From the NCBI GenBank assembly GCA_947303535.1, contig CAMYYQ010000020.1, positions 1-9,243 of the forward strand: a stretch of 9,243 nucleotides of DNA, given 5' to 3'. A program made the position numbers and the translations under genes. The stretch comes from an uncultured Ruminococcus sp. (GTDB lineage Bacteria; Bacillota_A; Clostridia; Oscillospirales; Ruminococcaceae). The notes beneath the pieces are model-generated. The model had not been told where the DNA came from. It worked only from the letters and a program-made list of their open reading frames with translations, and made no database searches. This document shows, piece after piece, positions 1 to 9,131 of the stretch. Position 1 is the first letter of the stretch; each line of letters begins with the position of its first letter.

Positions 1-1298
1 CTATCGCGCTCTCCAATATTATCCTTATGGGAGCTCTCCTTGCAGGCGGTTTTGCATACATGACCCTTCTCCCGCATGAGACAAAAGCTGATGACGAGAA
101 CCGTATGCTCACCAAATTCCCGAAATTAACTGCAAAATCATATGCAAGCGGTCAGTATACAGAGGGAATCGCTGATTATTTCGATGATACAGTCCATAAC
201 AGAGCTAATATAAAGGAATTCATCGCTGATAATCTTATGCCGCTGAAAGGCAGAAAATACGGTGACGGCGAAGACGGCGCAGAGCTTTACGGAAGCGGCG
301 CAAAGAAAAAGAAGCCTGTCAGCGTAACTACTGCTTCACAGCCAAAAGCTGATATTCTGACTACAACAACTGCTGTACAGGAGACAACTGAACCTGCTAC
401 AGAAGAACCTGCTCCTGCTGAGGGTGAGCTCACGAACAATATCCTTATCGTGAACAAACGCGGTATCACTCTTTACGGCGGCGGCTGGGGAACTGAGCTG
501 GAATACGCTTCATATCTTAATGCTTACAAGGAAAAGCTTGGAAATGTCAACGTTTATTCTATGGTGCTCCCTACTTCAAGCTCGTTCTATCTGCCTGACA
601 ACTACAAAGACCTTGCTCACAGTGAGAAGGAAGATTTTGACAATATCGACGGTGCATTGCAGAATGTTATGTCAGTTGATGCATATTCGGCTCTTAACGC
701 CCATAAAGACGAGGCTATCTACTCACGTACAGATCATCACTGGCAGCCCCTGGGGGCTTATTATGCTGCTGAGAAATTCGCACTCACAGCAGGTGTGCCT
801 TTTGCCGATCTTTCCGAGTATGAAACAGTTACTCTCCCGGGCTACGTCGGTACATTGTATATGTATACACAGAGCGCTACTCTTCTCAATAATCCCGAGG
901 ACTTCGTTTACTATAAACCAAAGTCTCCTGTAACTGTAACTCAGTACGATACACGTTTCCAGAACCCTGTTGTGGCTAATCTCCTGCTTGACCCGTCAGG
1001 TATGCCGAATTCGGGATACTATATGGTATTCGGCTCTGACGAGAGGATAGTCCATGTGAATACTGAGTGTAAGAACGGAAGAACTCTCGTTATCTTCAAG
1101 GACAGCTACGGAAACGCTCTCCTGCCTATGCTCACAAGCTCGTTCGAGAACATCTACCTCTGCGATATCCGCTATTTTGACCTTAATGCCATTGATTTCA
1201 TCAATCAGGTGGGTGCTACAGACCTGCTGTTCTCGATGTGTTCGTTCTCGGCTGTAGGCGTGAACAGAAACAGTATATACAACAATCTTATCAGATAA
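1..1298 (+). CDS. DHHW family membrane-anchored AlgX/DltD-like protein, 5'-partial
   Basis: The frame is open to the left edge (first full codon at 3). The ATG at 27 has no ribosome site and lies inside a hydrophobic stretch (bases 3-75), so the true start is probably upstream of the window. That stretch looks like a signal anchor, placing the rest of the protein outside the cell. A TDHHW motif sits at 729-743 and KDSYGN at about 1098-1115. By analogy with AlgJ/AlgX, where D-x-H-W and a downstream Ser form a SGNH-like triad, the candidates are Asp 732-734, His 738-740 and Ser 1104-1106. A Lys then Thr/Pro/Ala-rich stretch (about 300-430) splits the N-terminal part from the SGNH-like part. DHHW proteins are typically encoded next to MBOAT acyltransferases and are thought to help O-acylate extracellular glycans. 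It ends nine bases before the FkbH-like gene, in one operon. The family call is firm; the substrate is unknown. Confidence 0.85.
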   Translation, partial: IALSNIILMGALLAGGFAYMTLLPHETKADDENRMLTKFPKLTAKSYASGQYTEGIADYFDDTVHNRANIKEFIADNLMPLKGRKYGDGEDGAELYGSGAKKKKPVSVTTASQPKADILTTTTAVQETTEPATEEPAPAEGELTNNILIVNKRGITLYGGGWGTELEYASYLNAYKEKLGNVNVYSMVLPTSSSFYLPDNYKDLAHSEKEDFDNIDGALQNVMSVDAYSALNAHKDEAIYSRTDHHWQPLGAYYAAEKFALTAGVPFADLSEYETVTLPGYVGTLYMYTQSATLLNNPEDFVYYKPKSPVTVTQYDTRFQNPVVANLLLDPSGMPNSGYYMVFGSDERIVHVNTECKNGRTLVIFKDSYGNALLPMLTSSFENIYLCDIRYFDLNAIDFINQVGATDLLFSMCSFSAVGVNRNSIYNNLIR

Positions 1299-1307
1299 GG
1301 AGACATA

Positions 1308-3104
1308 ATGAAAGAGCTTGATTTTCCTTTTGATGCTGCTTATATAATGAGAAAAAAGCGCGGTCTTCGCAAAGAGCTTCTTAGTGACGGCAGCGTCCGC
1401 ATAAAGAAAAAGATCGCTGTTCTCGGCGGTTCAACTACCGATCATATCGTTTCAGCTCTTGAGCTTTTCCTGCTTAATTCAGGCATTGAACCTGAGTTTT
1501 ATCAGTCAGAATACAATAAATTCTACGAGGACGCTGTTTTCGGCAATGCCGAGCTTGACAGCTTCTCCCCTGATATAATCTATATCCATACGACTTCGAG
1601 AAATCTTACTCTTGTTCCCGATAGCCCTTTGGAAACTGCCGAAAGCGTTCAGTCAAGGCTCGATGAACAGGAAAACATATTCAGACAGGTCTGGAAAAGT
1701 CTTGAAAACCGCTTCCACTGCCCTGTTATTCAGAATAATTTCGAGCTTCCCCTCTTCCGCCGCTCAGGCAGCTTCGACGGCTGGAACACCTGCGGTCAGG
1801 CTGCTTTTATCCAACGCATGAACGTTTTTGTGTCGGACTGGGCGCGTACGCATAAGGGCTTTTTTGTGAATGACATAAACTACCTTTCATCAGTCTGCGG
1901 ACTTACCAAATGGCATAATGCTGATGACTGGTATCTCTATAAATACGCCATGAGCACAGAAGTTATCCCCGACCTTGCCTACAGCATCGCCTGTATCATC
2001 AAGTCGGTATACGGCAAAAACAAAAAGGTCATCGACCTTGACCTTGATAACACACTATGGGGCGGCGTTATCGGCGACGACGGTCAGGAGGGTATCGAGA
2101 TAGGTCCCGAAACTGCCACAGGACAGTCATTCAGCGAATTCCAGTCTTTTCTCAAAGGCTATAAGGACTACGGTGTGCTCCTTGCCGTATGCTCAAAAAA
2201 CGAAGAGGAAAATGCTCTTCTCGGATTGAAGCACCCAAGCAGTATACTTGCTCCCGAAGATTTTGTGTCCATAAAGGCAAACTGGCAGCCAAAGGATCAG
2301 AATATTGCGGAGTCGGCTGACGAGCTTTCACTTGGCATAGACTCTTTCGTATTCCTTGACGATAATCCTGCGGAATGTGCTATAGTTGAGGGACAGCTAC
2401 CCTCAGTGCAGACAGTTCCTGTAACAAGCGTACACGACGCTATGTATATGCTTTCAAGAAGCGGATTTTTTGAGATCACTTCCCTTTCCGATGATGATAT
2501 GCACCGCTCGGAGATGTATGCGGCAAATGCTAAAAGAGCTGCTCAGCAGAAGCAGTTCGGAAACTATGCCGATTATCTGCTGAGCCTTGATATGACGGCT
2601 GTTATAAGCGGGTTTGAGCCTGTTTACATTCAGCGTGTGACTCAGCTCACCAACAAGAGCAATCAGTTCAATCTGACAACAAGACGTTATACCGAAAATG
2701 AGATACAGCAGCTAAGCAACAGCAGCGACCATATCTGTCTCTGCGGTCAGCTCAGTGATAAATTCGGCGACAACGGCATAGTTTCAGTAGTTATCGGAAA
2801 GATCAACGGCAATGTCCTCGATATCGAGCTGTGGCTCATGAGCTGCCGCGTTCTCAAACGTGATATGGAGCTTGCCATGCTGGACGAGCTTGTAAGTCAG
2901 GCTAAGCGCAGAGACATCACAAGGCTTAACGGCTATTACTACAAAACTGCAAAAAACAATATGGTATCGGAGCTGTATGGTGAATTCGGATTCACTCTTG
3001 ATGAAAAAGCCGAAAACGGCGACTCTGTGTGGCATCTTGATATCACTGACTATAAAAAGAAAAATAAAGTCATAAAAACAAAAGAAAAGGAGCTTATAAA
3101 ATGA
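1308..3104 (+). CDS. FkbH-like HAD-IIIC family protein (SGNH-HAD-GNAT), probable glyceryl-ACP synthase
   Basis: Three parts are visible. The N-terminal SGNH-like region (about residues 35-225) begins with a GGST motif at 40-43. The HAD core has motif I DLDNTLWGG with Asp245 and Asp247, a CSKNEE segment (Cys295-Ser296-Lys297) and a DDNPAE motif at 351-356. The C-terminal GNAT-like domain (about 430-585) has the family blocks QLTNKSNQFNLTTRRYT, DKFGDNG and WLMSCRVL (Cys513). Characterised FkbH relatives of polyketide pathways take the three-carbon unit of 1,3-bisphosphoglycerate, remove phosphate and pass glyceryl via an enzyme thioester to a carrier protein. All HAD catalytic positions are present here, so an active enzyme is likely; C295 and C513 are the candidate thioester cysteines. 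The start at 1308 has AAGGAG at 1297-1302. The 3' end overlaps the ACP gene by ATGA, matching a dedicated carrier. Family is certain; acyl identity is inferred. The protein has no signal peptide and should be cytoplasmic. Confidence 0.92.
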   Translation: MKELDFPFDAAYIMRKKRGLRKELLSDGSVRIKKKIAVLGGSTTDHIVSALELFLLNSGIEPEFYQSEYNKFYEDAVFGNAELDSFSPDIIYIHTTSRNLTLVPDSPLETAESVQSRLDEQENIFRQVWKSLENRFHCPVIQNNFELPLFRRSGSFDGWNTCGQAAFIQRMNVFVSDWARTHKGFFVNDINYLSSVCGLTKWHNADDWYLYKYAMSTEVIPDLAYSIACIIKSVYGKNKKVIDLDLDNTLWGGVIGDDGQEGIEIGPETATGQSFSEFQSFLKGYKDYGVLLAVCSKNEEENALLGLKHPSSILAPEDFVSIKANWQPKDQNIAESADELSLGIDSFVFLDDNPAECAIVEGQLPSVQTVPVTSVHDAMYMLSRSGFFEITSLSDDDMHRSEMYAANAKRAAQQKQFGNYADYLLSLDMTAVISGFEPVYIQRVTQLTNKSNQFNLTTRRYTENEIQQLSNSSDHICLCGQLSDKFGDNGIVSVVIGKINGNVLDIELWLMSCRVLKRDMELAMLDELVSQAKRRDITRLNGYYYKTAKNNMVSELYGEFGFTLDEKAENGDSVWHLDITDYKKKNKVIKTKEKELIK

Positions 3105-3343
3105 ACACTAACGAAATAATCCCAAGACTTAATGAGGTTTTCCGTGATGTTTTCGGAGACTCTTCTATCTCGGTCACAGCTTCTACTACAGCAGACGATA
3201 TAGATGACTGGGACAGCATCGAGCACATCAACCTCATTGGTGCTGTTGAGGCTGAATTCGGTATGCGCTTTAAGATGCGCGAAGTCTCAGGCATGAAAAA
3301 TGTGGGAGAAATGATAAATATTATCGCAGAAAGAGGAAAATAA
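3101..3343 (+). CDS. Acyl carrier protein, partner of the FkbH-like enzyme
   Basis: An 80-residue stand-alone carrier protein of normal ACP length. The phosphopantetheine site is the Ser39 of DDWDSIEH (residues 35-42), followed by the helix II/III pattern INLIGAVEAEFGMRF. The WDS-I/L-xH-xxLI form is the version usually seen in carriers adjacent to FkbH genes, rather than the DSLD form of fatty-acid AcpP. It probably holds a three-carbon acyl group as a thioester in the cytoplasm and presents it to a membrane acyltransferase, as DltC does for D-alanine. A strong AAAAGGAG lies at 3085-3092. The start overlaps the end of the FkbH-like gene (ATGA), indicating translational coupling and matched amounts. 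A phosphopantetheinyl transferase must act on it; none is in the window. Confidence 0.92.
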   Translation: MNTNEIIPRLNEVFRDVFGDSSISVTASTTADDIDDWDSIEHINLIGAVEAEFGMRFKMREVSGMKNVGEMINIIAERGK

Positions 3344-4203
3344 TGGGTAAGAAATTTTCCCAAAAAACTAAAAAAAAACTGAAGATACTCCTTATACTGT
3401 TCATTATATATGTTATCCTCACTGCATGGGGATATGTGATGCAAACAGTAAAATACAAGGTGAAGTCCGACAAACTGGATAAGGGTCTGAGGATAGTATT
3501 CATCTCCGATCTGCATAACTGCTTTTACGGCGGTACAGACCAGTCGGCTCTCATTGATAAGGTACATGATGCTGCTCCCGATATCGTTGTATTCGGCGGC
3601 GATATCATTGATATGTGGGGCGGTACCAAACACGCCCTCACCCTTATGAGAGCTCTCAGCAGCGAGTATCCCTGTTTCTATTCCCCGGGCAACCACGAAG
3701 AAATGAGAAGCGATGTCGAGGATTTTTACAATAAAGCAAGGAAGATATGTCCTTTGCTTATCGGCGAAAATTACGCAGATATCACTGTAAACGGTCAGGA
3801 TATACGCCTTTTCGGTGCTATAAATGCTCAGGCGTGCAATAAGTATTCGACTCAGCTTCAGGAGTGCTTTGATAATATGGACAATGAGCATTACAATATA
3901 CTTGTTGCTCATCACCCAGAAGATATCGACAGCTATCTCGGCGAAGGCTGCGATACCGACAAAGATTTCGACCTTATACTCTCGGGACACGCTCACGGCG
4001 GTCAGTGGAGAATACCAAAGCTCCTCGATCAGGGACTTTATGCCCCTCAGCAGGGAATGTTCCCGAAATATACCACGGGTATGTATGAGTACGGAGACAC
4101 TGTACATATAATAAGCCGCGGACTTGCAAAGCCACTCAGAATGATATTCATACCAAGGATTTTCAATCGTCCTGAGTTTTCTATCATAGATATAAACAGA
4201 TAA
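3343..4203 (+). CDS. Membrane-anchored calcineurin-like metallophosphoesterase (YkuE/YaeI type)
   Basis: This 286-residue protein starts with a Lys-rich N-terminus and one hydrophobic segment (about residues 12-31). The positive-inside rule then places the catalytic domain outside the cell. The five metal-binding blocks of calcineurin-like phosphoesterases are intact and in order: ISDLH with Asp56 and His58, GGDIID with Asp87, GNHEE with Asn117 and His118, AHHP with His190-His191, and SGHAHGGQ with His216 and His218. This spacing and the GHAHGGQ ending fit the YaeI/YkuE subgroup, which acts on phosphodiester or pyrophosphate lipids. The start codon overlaps the stop of the ACP gene (TAATG), with AGAGGA at 3332-3337. 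It is the last gene of the left operon, so a role in lipid-linked glycan or polymer turnover fits, but the substrate cannot be read from the sequence. Confidence 0.9.
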   Translation: MGKKFSQKTKKKLKILLILFIIYVILTAWGYVMQTVKYKVKSDKLDKGLRIVFISDLHNCFYGGTDQSALIDKVHDAAPDIVVFGGDIIDMWGGTKHALTLMRALSSEYPCFYSPGNHEEMRSDVEDFYNKARKICPLLIGENYADITVNGQDIRLFGAINAQACNKYSTQLQECFDNMDNEHYNILVAHHPEDIDSYLGEGCDTDKDFDLILSGHAHGGQWRIPKLLDQGLYAPQQGMFPKYTTGMYEYGDTVHIISRGLAKPLRMIFIPRIFNRPEFSIIDINR

Positions 4204-4347: not shown

Positions 4348-5109
4348 ATGGAAAAAGAGAAAAATACTACAGAAGCGTCCGAAAATATGATCTGCGGACG
4401 TAATCCGGTTATCGAAGCACTAAAATCAGGTGCTAACCTTGATACTATATATATCAACGGTAACGGCGGAAGCCTCGGTGTTATCCGCCGACTTGCAAAA
4501 GAAAATGGCATCGTTGTAAAAGATGCCGATGATAAAAAGCTCTCAAGACTGTCAGGCGGTGCTTCTCATCAGGGCGTTGTTGCCGAAGGAGCCTGCGGAG
4601 AATATGTTTCCGTTGAGGATATCCTCGCTGTTTCACGGAAAAAAGGCACAAAGCCTTTCATTATAATCTGTGATGAGATCGAAGATCTACATAACCTCGG
4701 TGCTATTATCCGTACTGCCGAAACATCGGGAGCTGACGGCGTTATCATACCGAAGCGCAGAAGCGCTTCCCTTAACGCTACTGTTTTCAAGACATCAGCA
4801 GGTGCAGCAAATTATGTGCCTGTTGCAAGAGTCTCAAATCTTGCCAGCTGTATCGACACCCTCAAGGAAAACGGTGTGTGGATATACGGCACCGATGCCT
4901 CGGGTACTGATTATTCCGAGACCGATTTTACGGGCGGAGTTGCTCTTATTATCGGCTCTGAGGGCTTCGGCATGAGCAAGCTTATACAAAAAAAATGCGA
5001 TTTTATGATAAAACTCCCTATGCTTGGAAAAATAAATTCACTCAATGCTTCCGTCGCAGCAGGTATCTTTATGTATGAGGTGCTGCGTCAGCGCAGAGGC
5101 AATAACTAA
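4348..5109 (+). CDS. rlmB: 23S rRNA 2'-O-ribose methyltransferase, RlmB/TrmH (SpoU) family
   Basis: A 253-residue SpoU-family enzyme of usual length. It has an N-terminal substrate-binding domain (ICGRNPVIEAL at about 15-25) and then the knotted methyltransferase fold. The three family motifs are present: motif 1 DLHNLGAIIRTAE with Asn116 and Arg122, motif 2 IIGSEGFGM around Glu205, and motif 3 LPMLGKINSLNASVA at 223-237. These bind S-adenosylmethionine and catalyse ribose 2'-O-methylation, most likely of 23S rRNA guanosine (position 2251 in E. coli), although closely related paralogs methylate other sites. The start is fixed at 4348 because an in-frame stop lies two codons upstream and the next ATG (4387) has no ribosome site. 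It is driven by the promoter at 4238-4266 and is followed after ten bases by the pseudo-ATPase gene. Confidence 0.92.
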   Translation: MEKEKNTTEASENMICGRNPVIEALKSGANLDTIYINGNGGSLGVIRRLAKENGIVVKDADDKKLSRLSGGASHQGVVAEGACGEYVSVEDILAVSRKKGTKPFIIICDEIEDLHNLGAIIRTAETSGADGVIIPKRRSASLNATVFKTSAGAANYVPVARVSNLASCIDTLKENGVWIYGTDASGTDYSETDFTGGVALIIGSEGFGMSKLIQKKCDFMIKLPMLGKINSLNASVAAGIFMYEVLRQRRGNN

Positions 5110-5119
5110 GGAGATAATT

Positions 5120-7651
5120 ATGTCGGAACAGAAACCATCGCTGGAGGCTATTCTTGACGAGTACTCTCCCGATAACAACGAACCCAAGACTAAAGTGGGC
5201 AGAGTAGATGCCCAGAAGATCATAAATTCAACTGTAGACTCACCCGACATTGTTCAGAAAGCTAAATCAAGACCTCCCGTTTCACATGAGAAATCCGCGC
5301 TTTTTGACAACGCGCTCCGCAACGAACAGCCTGCGGACGCAGTCAAGCCTGCCGACCTTTCACGGCACAAGATAGCCGTTGTAAGCTCGGACGCAATGAG
5401 CGAGATACGGACAAATCCTCAGCGAAAGGTCATTCCGTCAGGTGTTGTCACCCCGGTACAGATGAATCCCGATGAAGCTCCCAAAATAAGGCGTATGAGC
5501 GAATCTACCCGCGCCAAGGAAGCTGACGGTAAAAAATATAAAAAGAAGCGCAAGGGCAGAAAGGATAACGACTACACCTACGCTAAGGAAACTCCCGACG
5601 GAGAGTATATGTATGCTCCGCCTGAGTTCAAAAAGAAAAAGCGAAGCAGGATACAGATAATCCAGGCTGCCGAAAGTCCTGAGGGACGCAAGCAGATAAC
5701 CGATATCGTTCCGTCACCTGCTGCTGTTGAGGCTGCAAAGCCTGTTGAGCCTGCTCCGAGAGCTGAGCTCACAAGCATAAACCTCAGCGAAAAGGCACAG
5801 ATAGACGCAGGTCAGCTCGATGTACACATAACTCAAGAAGCTGACGAGTATATGTCGGTACATTCAAAGCGCAAGCGTACAAAACGTATCGTTGACTTCA
5901 ATTATTACGGCGATGTTGAAGATGTGGGACGAGATATATATGAGCTGAAAAGCACGATTTCCGTCAGAGTAGTTATTCTCGCTATGACGGCTTTTCTGAG
6001 CCTGTTCATCACTATATCCAACCAGTTCCAGCTGCCGCTGCTGGATTTTCTGAGTATGTCGCATATCAAGACATATCTCACTACACATCTGGTGCTTGGT
6101 ATTATTTCCATACTGTCGTCAATGGCTGTCATCACAAAGGGCGTGAAAAAGCTTGTAAGCCTGAAAGCAGACAGCGATTCTATGACAGCTGTTACAGCTC
6201 TTTCCTGTCTCATTGCTATCATACCTGCATTTCTGAGACCGGGACTTGTTACAACGGAAAATATACACATCTATATGCCAGTGGGTATCCTTGCTCTGTT
6301 TATCAATGCAGTTGGCAAACTCCTTATTATAAGGCGTGCGGCAAGGAACTTCAAATTCGTTTCAAAGAATTTCGACCGTCACGGCGTTACCTACGTTACT
6401 GATGAAGAACGCGCTGAACGCATAACCCGCGGAACACTCGGCGACTTCCCTATTCTCGCTTCTATGAGAAAAACGGACTTTCTCACCGATTTTCTGCGAT
6501 ATACCTATTCATCTGATATGACCGATGAATACTGCAAAAAAGCAACTCCTATATGCTTTATCGCTTCGATCATCGTTGCTTTCTTCCTTACGTTCTTCTG
6601 CAAGGGTACTTTCTTCAATCTTGACTCCGCTGCATTCGGATTTTCAATATTCAGTATGCTCATATGCGCTACTTCCTGTATCGCTATGCCGTTCGTAGTC
6701 AACATACCTCTGGAGAATGTTTCAAACAGCGCTATCAGGAACAAAGGCATAATGCTTGGATATCAGAGCGTTGACGACTTCTATGACACTAACTCGATAC
6801 TTGTTGACGCAGGTTCGCTTTTCCCTGAGGGTACTGTAAGACTTGACGGTATCAAGGTATTCTCAAATACAAAGCTTGATGAAGCTCTTCTTGAAGCTGC
6901 AAGCCTTACTGCTACGGCAGGAAGCATAATGTCTCAGCTTTTCACTGACGTTATCGCAGGCAGAAACGGTGTGCTCTACCCTATCGAAAATTACTCCTAT
7001 GAGGAGGGTATGGGTATGTGCGGCTGGATAAACAACAAGAGAGTCCTCTTCGGCAACCGCGAGCTTATGACGAGCCACAACATCGAAGGCGTTCCTACAA
7101 AAACTCAGGAAGCCGAAATGATAGACGGCAAAAAGGACGCGATGTATCTTTCGATATCAGGCAATCTTGCTGCGATGTTCGTAGTTGATATAGTTGCAGA
7201 CCGTTATGTAAAGAAATGGTCGAGGAAACTCTGCAAAAACAAGATATGCTTATTTGTAAAGAGCATTGATCCCTGCATCACCGTTAAAAAACTCAATTCT
7301 CTTTTCGGTATACCCGAGGATATGGCAAGGATACTTCCCAAAAAGCTCCATGAGGACTTCTATGAGGAGACCAAAAAGGCTGTACGTCTCAGCTCTTCAA
7401 TGGCTACTACAGGTAAATTCTCCTCACTTGCCGAGCTTCTCATCGGCACTAAGGTAGTTCATACCTCTGCTATTATCGGACTTATCCTACAGACTGCATC
7501 TATACTTCTCGGCTTCGGACTGTGTATGCTTCTGATACTTTCAAAGGCATTCCGCTCCAATTATGTGTATATGTCGGCTACTGCACTGACCGTTTATAAC
7601 CTGGTCTGGGCTGCTGTCACATACATTGCCGTAAGCATCAAAAAAACATAA
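5120..7651 (+). CDS. P1B-type ATPase-like membrane protein lacking catalytic motifs (pseudo-ATPase)
   Basis: The 843-residue frame starts at 5120, with TAAGGAG at 5107-5113; the open frame extends upstream into the methyltransferase gene but without a ribosome site. Residues 1-280 are polar and low-complexity with Lys/Arg clusters and no metal-binding CxxC domain. Eight hydrophobic segments follow: about 282-303, 322-342, 355-374, 384-405, 476-496, 504-530, 781-812 and 815-838. This is the P1B metal ATPase topology, with a P/N-domain-like region between segments 6 and 7. Recognisable landmarks are DEALLEAASL, GMGMCG and KRVLFGNRELM (GNR at 645-647). The key motifs are lost. DKTGTLTEG reads DAGSLFPEG (Asp563 kept), GDGxND reads TTGKFS (763-768), the TGD region reads KSID (714-717), the SEHP motif is absent, CPC is TSC (518-520), and the actuator loop is short with no TGE. 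Ion pumping is therefore unlikely; a scaffold or sensor role is possible but unproven. Confidence 0.8.
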   Translation: MSEQKPSLEAILDEYSPDNNEPKTKVGRVDAQKIINSTVDSPDIVQKAKSRPPVSHEKSALFDNALRNEQPADAVKPADLSRHKIAVVSSDAMSEIRTNPQRKVIPSGVVTPVQMNPDEAPKIRRMSESTRAKEADGKKYKKKRKGRKDNDYTYAKETPDGEYMYAPPEFKKKKRSRIQIIQAAESPEGRKQITDIVPSPAAVEAAKPVEPAPRAELTSINLSEKAQIDAGQLDVHITQEADEYMSVHSKRKRTKRIVDFNYYGDVEDVGRDIYELKSTISVRVVILAMTAFLSLFITISNQFQLPLLDFLSMSHIKTYLTTHLVLGIISILSSMAVITKGVKKLVSLKADSDSMTAVTALSCLIAIIPAFLRPGLVTTENIHIYMPVGILALFINAVGKLLIIRRAARNFKFVSKNFDRHGVTYVTDEERAERITRGTLGDFPILASMRKTDFLTDFLRYTYSSDMTDEYCKKATPICFIASIIVAFFLTFFCKGTFFNLDSAAFGFSIFSMLICATSCIAMPFVVNIPLENVSNSAIRNKGIMLGYQSVDDFYDTNSILVDAGSLFPEGTVRLDGIKVFSNTKLDEALLEAASLTATAGSIMSQLFTDVIAGRNGVLYPIENYSYEEGMGMCGWINNKRVLFGNRELMTSHNIEGVPTKTQEAEMIDGKKDAMYLSISGNLAAMFVVDIVADRYVKKWSRKLCKNKICLFVKSIDPCITVKKLNSLFGIPEDMARILPKKLHEDFYEETKKAVRLSSSMATTGKFSSLAELLIGTKVVHTSAIIGLILQTASILLGFGLCMLLILSKAFRSNYVYMSATALTVYNLVWAAVTYIAVSIKKT

Positions 7652-7718: not shown

Positions 7719-8162
7719 ATGCCAAACAGATATAATGGCAAAAACCATGACGAAATAAAAAATACTGACGATGAGGATACAATGCTGCTGCCTGATGATC
7801 TGAACGATTACAGGCAATATCAGCAGCCCCGTCAGGAGCTTCCTCATCTGAGAAAGGTGGGCAGCAATACCTCACGTCCACAGCAGAAAAACGGCGAGAG
7901 AGTGTATACTTCAAATGATCCGCCTCAGTTTCCACAGTCGGGACAGCCGCCGCAGTTCCCGCACAGCTCTGCTCCCCCACCGCCGATGCATCAGCAGTCG
8001 GGACAGTATTACGATTATAATCAGCAGCCGCCTCAGAACTACAGCGGATATTCACAGACTCCGCCGCCTGTAGCACCTACAGCTCCACCTCCGCCACCCC
8101 AGCGTCCTGCTTCACAGAGCAGACCTGCCGCTGCTCCCGAGCCTGAGCATCAGCCCAAATAG
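7719..8162 (+). CDS. N-terminal half of the split LCP protein: Pro/Gln-rich cytoplasmic tail
   Basis: 147 codons ending at TAG. The first 60 residues are acidic and polar (DDEDTMLLPDDL), followed by a proline, glutamine, serine and tyrosine-rich stretch with PPQFP and SGQ repeats. The 12-base direct repeat CAGTCGGGACAG occurs at 7935-7946 and 7995-8006. On its own it has no membrane segment and no recognisable enzyme domain, so as a free product it would be a short disordered cytoplasmic peptide. Its ribosome site (AAAGGA, seven bases before ATG) is good. It is best understood as the tail of the LCP protein encoded immediately downstream in the same frame. Confidence 0.6.
   Translation: MPNRYNGKNHDEIKNTDDEDTMLLPDDLNDYRQYQQPRQELPHLRKVGSNTSRPQQKNGERVYTSNDPPQFPQSGQPPQFPHSSAPPPPMHQQSGQYYDYNQQPPQNYSGYSQTPPPVAPTAPPPPPQRPASQSRPAAAPEPEHQPK
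8160..8162 (+). other. In-frame TAG between the tail and the membrane anchor
   Basis: The codons read CAG CCC AAA TAG AAA AAG CGC AAG. The seven other stops of recognised genes here are TAA or TGA, so this is the only TAG in a stop position. One base change from AAG (Lys) or CAG (Gln) would create it. No -1 slippery heptamer fits the zero frame, and no frame change is needed to continue. Confidence 0.9.
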
Positions 8163-8285
8163 AAAAAGCGCAAGCATAAATCTCTTGCAGGAAAGATAAT
8201 CGGCAGGATAATAAAATCATTACTTGTTCTTTTCCTGCTGCTGTTCGGCATATATTCATGTACATCTTTAAGCCTTATAAGCAAG

Positions 8286-9131
8286 ATGAACCATGTTGAA
8301 ACAGGCAGCCGTACTCATTACGCTAATAATACGGGCAGAACCCATGTACGCAGCGTACTTGTAATAGGCACTGACGGAAGGACCAATGACGACCGCGGAC
8401 GTTCGGACTCTATGATACTTGTTTCTCTCAACAGCAAGACAAATGAGCTTATTATGACATCTTTCATGCGTGACTGTTATGTTGAGATACCTGATAACGG
8501 CTGGAACAAGCTCAATGCAGCATATGCTTTCGGAGGTCCTGAGCTTCTTATGGACACTATCGAATATAACTTCGATGTACGTATCGACGATTATGTTTCT
8601 GTGGATTTTGCTTCATTCGTATCCGTTGTTGACTCTGTCGGCGGAATCGATATCGAGGTAAGTGATGAGGAAGCCGAAGAGATCAACGTTATCCTCATAT
8701 CTGAGGTAAATGAGCTTATGGGTGATGACAGAATGTCAGACCTTCTTGACCACGGTGGAAAGCTCCACCTTAACGGCAAGCAGGCACTCTCCTACTCACG
8801 AATACGTAAGGTCGGCAACAGCGACTTTGAACGTACTCAGCGTCAGCGCAGAGTTATGTCACTTATCATCGCTAAACTCAAGTCATTCAGACCTTCAATG
8901 TTCAAGCACCTTGCTTCTGACGTTATCCCCGATGTTTCAACAAATATGTCAACTCTTGACGCTTATCTGCTCTCACTGAGACTGCCTTTCGCAGCAAGAT
9001 ATAAGATGAAGCAGATACAGATACCTGCTGATAACACATTCTACGGCGCAGATGTTGATGTCGGAAACGTTCTGCAAGTTGATTTTGACGCAAATATGGA
9101 CGTTATCGAAAGAGAAGTATTTGCAAAATAA
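8286..9131 (+). CDS. LCP domain: cell-wall polymer ligase (LytR-CpsA-Psr family)
   Basis: 281 codons from the first ATG after the stop; the open frame itself begins at 8163 and includes the basic stretch and membrane helix. LCP landmarks are all present: VLVIGTDGR near residues 25-33, RSDSMILVSLN, SFMRDCYVEIP, KLNAAYAFGG, SVGGIDIEV, and LNGKQALSYSRIRKVGNSDFERTQRQRRV. The last block carries the conserved Arg residues that hold the polyprenyl pyrophosphate. The family attaches teichoic acids, capsule or other glycopolymers to peptidoglycan on the outer face of the membrane. Starting at 8286 would lose the membrane anchor and export signal. There is no Shine-Dalgarno before this ATG (TTATAAGCAAG). 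A functional product therefore seems to need readthrough of the TAG, or an unusual start near 8196-8199, after AGGA at 8189-8192. Confidence 0.85.
   Translation: MNHVETGSRTHYANNTGRTHVRSVLVIGTDGRTNDDRGRSDSMILVSLNSKTNELIMTSFMRDCYVEIPDNGWNKLNAAYAFGGPELLMDTIEYNFDVRIDDYVSVDFASFVSVVDSVGGIDIEVSDEEAEEINVILISEVNELMGDDRMSDLLDHGGKLHLNGKQALSYSRIRKVGNSDFERTQRQRRVMSLIIAKLKSFRPSMFKHLASDVIPDVSTNMSTLDAYLLSLRLPFAARYKMKQIQIPADNTFYGADVDVGNVLQVDFDANMDVIEREVFAK

Follow-up and report, generated by a model that had tools for sequence, protein, structure and literature searches.

Introduction

P-type ATPases are usually regarded as pumps, and their cycle should not run without the Mg site of GDGxND, the lysine of DKTG and the TGES loop. 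A P-type fold with degenerate catalytic motifs is nevertheless carried by a human ER protein, TMEM94/ERMA, whose activity is disputed. TMEM94, which is closest to SPCA in its authors' comparison, lacks TGES, and no ATPase activity was detected for it in detergent. It nonetheless binds a nucleotide and a lipid-like density, and its authors leave pumping open (PMC12134183). Another group holds that ERMA does pump, its DKTGT being replaced by DKQGI and its GDGVND by GSSANL (PMC13322241). As for prokaryotes, a review considers that more P-type families are likely, and the accessible part of its text does not mention a pseudoenzyme branch (PMC10654040). Our literature searches, with subscription papers mostly outside their coverage, found no bacterial pseudo-P-type-ATPase, and no Pfam or NCBIfam model specific to such a pseudo-P1B branch reached its cut-off here. 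Pseudoenzymes and the P-type fold are both already known as kinds; the order-wide bacterial pseudo-P1B branch described below appears to be new.

The gene that led to this branch lies at 5120..7651 on the + strand of the window, i.e. the whole stretch of 9,243 nucleotides analysed, which comes from an uncultured Ruminococcus sp. It encodes a protein of 843 aa, and its frame is open throughout the 843 codons without any interruption, as the initial annotation had stated. The ATG start is backed by a conserved start among relatives and by an AAGGAG at 5108-5113, a likely ribosome-binding site that overlaps the stop codon of the upstream rlmB gene. The closest named relatives are Ruminococcus flavefaciens ATCC 19208, Y1 and YAD2003, with 97-98% identity. 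NCBI places the species in Eubacteriales, Oscillospiraceae; the order used in our searches, which we take to be Oscillospirales, is simply called the order hereafter.

When compared to CopA-type P1B pumps (LpCopA, 3rfu/4bbj), the family has lost DKTG, TGES, GDGxND, SEHP and CPC as well as most of the A domain, and where these pumps have a metal-binding N-terminal domain, the window protein has a cysteine-free arm instead. The likeness to TMEM94/ERMA is of another kind: in both, a P-type fold is combined with degenerate catalytic motifs, TGES being absent and GDGxND replaced or lost. However, TMEM94/ERMA is eukaryotic and has 10 transmembrane helices, a large N-like domain and a DKQGI motif that keeps the Asp, whereas the bacterial family has 8 predicted helices and no DKQGI. 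It is further degenerate than TMEM94/ERMA, because even the acceptor Asp is not fixed. For research on P-type proteins, it thus offers a prokaryotic counterpart to the disputed human protein, with hundreds of natural variants.

Relationship to P1B-type ATPases

Taken as a single sequence, the window protein shows a weak but real similarity to P1B ATPases (TIGR01525, E 4.7e-8; LpCopA 3rfu, E 1.3e-7). A Pfam search gives no family at E<=10 for it, and of the 57 sequences in the order-wide core alignment (profile A3), only 2 have a Pfam match at E<=0.001. Profile comparison is decisive, as hhalign aligns the family to P1B ATPases with a probability of 99.9 and an E-value of 4e-35 over 521 columns. 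The structure model also predicts a P-type fold, with a complete 8-helix bundle and P and N domains, and its N-like domain superposes on the solved P1B N-domain 5lbd with an rmsd of 2.6 over 113 residues. The fold search was restricted to the PDB, and the absence of a TMEM94 entry among the 50 matches listed excludes nothing. The alignment to P1B pumps that the initial annotation had made by eye is thus borne out by hhalign and the modelled fold, and the P/N-domain fold, on whose presence that annotation had made its reading depend, is found in the model. The family and CopA-type pumps share common descent.

This P1B-like core, with its 8 predicted transmembrane helices and A-, P- and N-like domains, spans residues 266-843 (5915..7648, +). 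The A (actuator) domain is reduced to a remnant at residues 406-466 (6335..6517, +), made in the model of two strands and short helices only. Ahead of the core and outside the modelled part, the N-terminal arm (residues 1-265; 5120..5914, +) is of low complexity and devoid of cysteine, and is probably disordered.

Loss of catalytic and metal-binding motifs

Motifs were placed with hhalign and by aligning 65 family members to 26 genuine pumps in MAFFT. They were then counted in 281 members, i.e. 221 proteins (the query and its listed homologues, a set skewed to near relatives) and 60 order-wide loci.

At the phosphorylation site of the window protein (D563-A-G-S-L-F-P569; 6806..6826, +), DAGSLFP stands in place of DKTGTLT, as first read by eye and now found by both methods. 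DKTG is found in 0/281 aligned cores, and its lysine in 0/281. The acceptor position is still an Asp in 209/281 members and in 39/60 order-wide loci, and otherwise mostly N, E or S; among the 26 near relatives of profile A1, 12 have D and the others N (5), E (5), S (3) or G (1). What has become nearly fixed there is L-F-P, now the conserved part of the site (F in 273/281 and P in 272/281; among the 60 order-wide loci, F568 in 54/60 and P in 51/60). A DKTGT string in one homologue, L072, was considered as a motif-keeping intermediate and rejected: the P-site of L072 is DASSLFP and no aligned core has DKTG, so that the string sits in the arm.

The other catalytic motifs have not fared better. 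GDGxND, which had been read as replaced by TTGKFS, turns out in hhalign to be deleted, within 32 gap columns, and TTGKFS lies farther downstream; the sole GDG..D string among the 281 members is elsewhere in the protein (L089). The earlier remark that the actuator lacks TGE is correct, TGES being comprised in a large deletion that takes most of the A domain. TGES is present in 0/281 cores, and TGE without the serine in 5/281, at five different places, one of which (L107) is within the A-domain remnant. For TGD, the loss proposed at first stands, but the substitution by KSID is only part of the picture, since the aligned residues S715-I-D717 (7262..7270, +) retain the Asp, which is kept in 277/281 members and 57/60 order-wide loci. 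SEHP is gone according to both methods, in agreement with the HP loss noted by eye; its histidine, like the first Gly of GxG, is either lost or variable. The PxxK lysine is retained in 1/281 members. Other positions are fixed or nearly so: G632 in 281/281 and 60/60, G645 in 60/60, and R647 in 50/60.

The metal motif is lost too. The CPC position aligns with S519-C520-I521 (6674..6682, +), one residue off the TSC initially proposed, and no [CST]P[CH] is found at this stretch in the 281 members. The CPC position retains its helix-breaking proline in 40/60 order-wide loci, but a Cys stands there in 26/26 A1 sequences. This proline, together with the complete 8-helix bundle of the model, would suit an ATP-independent conductor of lipids or ions, as debated for TMEM94/ERMA. 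We hold such a role to be very improbable, as a CPC-like motif occurs in 0/281 members and we know of no conserved polar path in the family.

When homologues are compared as had been advised, neither DKTG nor a genuine GDGxND is kept in any of the 281. As the same losses are found across members, they reflect a shared state of the family and not the private decay of one gene. No phosphorylation cycle is expected of a family that lacks the Mg/phosphate loop, the dephosphorylation loop and the DKTG lysine, and in which the acceptor Asp itself varies.

The near-fixed residues of the P and N domains (G632, G645, R647, D717 and F568) raise another possibility, namely that the P/N cleft of the headpiece could still bind a nucleotide or another small ligand, a change of shape then carrying the signal through the arm. 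The match of the modelled N-like domain to 5lbd is consistent with such a sensor, as is TMEM94, which binds AMPPCP at micromolar affinity with no ATPase activity detected (PMC12134183). The loss or variability of the SEHP histidine and of the first Gly of GxG argues against it, and we regard this role as unlikely.

Selection and distribution

The pairwise dN/dS of the window gene is 0.030, 0.028 and 0.031 when it is compared to L001, L028 and L030, respectively, and it is below 0.1 in every region, the arm included. The dN/dS computation suggested at the outset thus gives a value of about 0.03 in the three near pairs, which indicates purifying selection. Against L002, L004 and L006, the ratio is 0.050-0.055, with a dS above 1.2 and some regions saturated; the pairs with L033 and L014 are saturated, and their whole-gene dN/dS is not computable.

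These values bear on the simplest alternative, that of a decaying pump or of a divergent but active pump with unusual motifs. The Asp found at the acceptor position in most members, the TGE within the remnant of L107 and the case of ERMA, argued to pump with DKQGI (PMC13322241), could be taken in its favour. Yet the acceptor Asp is changed to N, E, S or G in 14/26 near relatives, GDGxND and TGES are deleted, and the lysines of DKTG and PxxK are absent or almost so. With a dN/dS of about 0.03 in near pairs and no catalytic homologue among the 281, we reject decay, and consider a pump of either sort hardly credible. By its common ancestry with P1B ATPases, the catalytic loss in the members examined and the purifying selection, the family is a pseudoenzyme branch of these ATPases, and all this suggests that the pump body is kept for a different job. 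The proposal of the initial annotation, a pseudo-P1B-ATPase selected for a function other than pumping, therefore holds as regards the fold, the 281 homologues and dN/dS; the sensor, scaffold, chaperone and lipid-site roles that it named are candidates.

Profile A1 matches 122 of the 295 order genomes at E<=1e-5, which understates the spread of the family when compared to A3. With the latter, 274/295 order genomes (93%) each give exactly one match at E<=1e-45: a fold without its chemistry is thus retained, as a single gene, in most sampled genomes of an order to which rumen and gut bacteria belong. When 391 genomes of the class were sampled, 17 were matched at E<=7e-83 among the matches listed, all from the order set; 18 order-set genomes are among the matches listed, G108 being the one without such a match, and the next-best match listed is at 8e-40. 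Weaker matches in this list are confined to about residues 202-530, and for the most part to 202-483, the kind of coverage that genuine P-type ATPases should give. The phylum sample (398 genomes) has six matches at E<=1e-45 and no more, all six in order-set genomes. Full-length matches in the two samples come from order-set genomes in every case. From the presence of the losses in every member seen, we infer a single ancestral loss, in or before the ancestor of the order.

Genuine P1B pumps above the curated cut-off co-occur with the family in 15/15 carrier genomes tested. Family members are annotated, in the records seen, as 'hypothetical protein' or, three times, as 'Cu+-exporting ATPase'. 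Apart from the family, P1B-like matches below the curated cut-off are found in frames of about 1,300 aa at G112:C1:902811-904457 and G082:C81:36367-38019, which may represent another unusual long P-type protein.

The N-terminal arm and its peptide

The arm is highly variable in length, from about 0 to about 900 aa before the core in 60 distant members. Near its start, it often carries a short peptide, S-[VIL]-[DE]-[DES]-I-L-x-E. In the window protein, the docking-like peptide SLEAILDEY (residues 7-15; 5138..5164, +) lies in a region conserved in A1, and its SLEAILDE part is one residue (Ala) off the strict pattern. When counted as a slightly wider regular expression, [STND][VLIM][DE][DES]IL.E, the pattern is present in the first 120 residues of 27/60 distant members (mean of 0.002 and maximum of 1 over 500 shuffles), and 0 times elsewhere in the proteins of the same 60 members. 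Similarly, among 4,355 frames of at least 100 aa, taken from the loci and the window (L035-L067 excluded as repeats), 40 carry it within their first 110 residues, all of them family genes or, once, a family fragment.

Searching sets of 147, 80 and 71 order genomes (298 genome searches) with a profile built from 23 such peptides (A2) gave 75 matches at E<=0.003, about 0.9 being expected by chance if the E-values hold. The majority (60/75) are in or just ahead of a family core on the same contig, and five more are contig-end pieces counted as family arms, either by clear similarity (L200, L201, L202), by their place after rlmB (L204), or by weak similarity (L220, E 4e-4). Ten matches remain that do not belong to family genes; they lie in three ABC-2 permeases, four VanW proteins, one LspA and two chance-like frames. 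Among the permeases, L196 and L219 are typed by Pfam, with the Wzm/RfbD galactan exporter as their nearest NCBIfam model (74-75 bits for a cut-off of 380), and L218, an arm at the end of a contig, shares 65% identity with the arm of L219. The VanW proteins (L203, L205, L207, L208) bear the peptide at their start, and the LspA (L206) at its extreme C-terminus. The MazG-like frame (L209) and the 79-aa frame (L210) look like chance matches, as do weaker ones in frames tentatively named AroQ-like, RluA-like and MutS-like; a sortase (L212) is matched at E 0.0156 only.

On the basis of its sequence and distribution, we read the peptide as a putative docking peptide used by several envelope proteins. 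Several points count against docking and against the scaffold proposed below: the strict pattern is absent from 33/60 distant members and from the window protein, L120-L122 have almost no arm, and the envelope proteins sharing the peptide number only eight, beside two chance-like matches. As a separate observation made by eye, the arms of one subgroup (L078, L081, L086, L093, L098, L100) carry a second short string, D-I-Y-Y-G-[LI]-x-L.

A possible role as a membrane scaffold

The reading we favour, with a little less than half of our confidence, is that of a membrane pseudoenzyme: a P1B-type ATPase of the CopA kind, having lost its catalytic and metal-binding residues, would have been retained as a scaffold with a recruiting arm. 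The 8-helix body and the headpiece would form the membrane-anchored part, and the long cytoplasmic arm would recruit, through its peptide, a common cytoplasmic partner. As the peptide also occurs on a handful of exporter permeases and VanW proteins and on one LspA, this partner would be shared with envelope proteins, and the pseudo-pump would therefore help to gather envelope-assembly proteins, presumably while being expressed together with rlmB. The strong constraint on core residues counts against the scaffold, since a passive anchor would not need it.

In the GpsB-type systems of Firmicutes, a cytoplasmic adaptor gathers envelope proteins via short N-terminal peptides. The gathering proposed here would be alike, with a peptide that differs from theirs. 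An extension of this proposal, unlikely as it stands, is that the pseudo-pump could be the core of an order-specific envelope-organising system, in which one adaptor would read the peptide on the pseudo-pump, polysaccharide exporters, VanW proteins and the lipoprotein signal peptidase, the pseudo-pump being the invariable component and fixing the site of their assembly. For work on the envelope of gut bacteria, the protein would then represent a candidate hub that can be put to the test.

Genomic neighbourhood

The neighbourhood was compared in 60 distant loci, chosen from the 122 A1-positive genomes from the strongest match down to about E 1e-18. In the window, the gene is preceded by rlmB (4348..5109, +; TIGR00186, E 4.9e-73), which encodes the 23S rRNA G2251 2'-O-methyltransferase. 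The same gene is directly upstream on the same strand in 59/60 distant loci, its match ending -132 to +171 bases from the frame, and in the 60th (L124) the frame is cut off by the contig end. Downstream genes are variable; an EF-G-like gene, typed by Pfam on one representative, is next on the same strand in 11/60 loci and lies elsewhere in two more. As both the constant neighbour rlmB and the EF-G-like gene belong to translation and not to the envelope, they count against the scaffold reading.

These neighbours would fit another reading, in which the protein tethers RlmB, the ribosome or translation, so that rRNA modification or translation would be tied to the membrane. The genomes without an A3 match at the threshold bear on this alternative, and 8 of the 21 were examined, namely seven of at least 2.2 Mb and G031. 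The two that have an rlmB above the curated cut-off still have the gene or its arm: in G221, rlmB is followed by a divergent copy (A3 E 5.5e-45 at this locus), and in G031 the contig ends inside an arm-like frame that follows rlmB. The six others (G037, G067, G094, G108, G137, G247) have neither an RlmB above the curated cut-off nor an A3 match, a hint of joint loss of the two genes that missing contigs could explain too. The arm of the window protein is also slightly basic (48 K+R for 41 D+E), but the 11/11 distant arms counted are net acidic, and operon history can account for the conserved gene order. A tether thus appears improbable to us.

The initial annotation had instead retained as a telling neighbour the downstream LCP-family gene (7719..9131, +). 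An LCP match is found downstream in 33/34 Ruminococcus loci, the 34th (L003) being a 3-kb contig, and no blastp match to it at E<1e-10 is found in the 60 distant loci, over about 8 kb on each side where the contig allowed. Because this neighbour is local to Ruminococcus, it is demoted as a functional clue, and the order-wide neighbour is rlmB. In the window, the LCP gene is split into 7719-8162 and 8286-9131, in the same frame, by one in-frame stop (8160-8162) between a proline-rich part and the LCP domain. Its counterpart in R. flavefaciens ATCC 19208 (L001:10601-12016) is a single intact frame of 471 aa; the stop is either a real nonsense change or an assembly error.

Finally, the beginning of the window (1-4203) contains, consecutively, genes for a DHHW/AlgX-like protein, an FkbH-type HAD protein, an 80-aa frame taken for a putative acyl carrier protein, and a calcineurin-like phosphoesterase. 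Together, they may be a surface-polymer acylation cluster.
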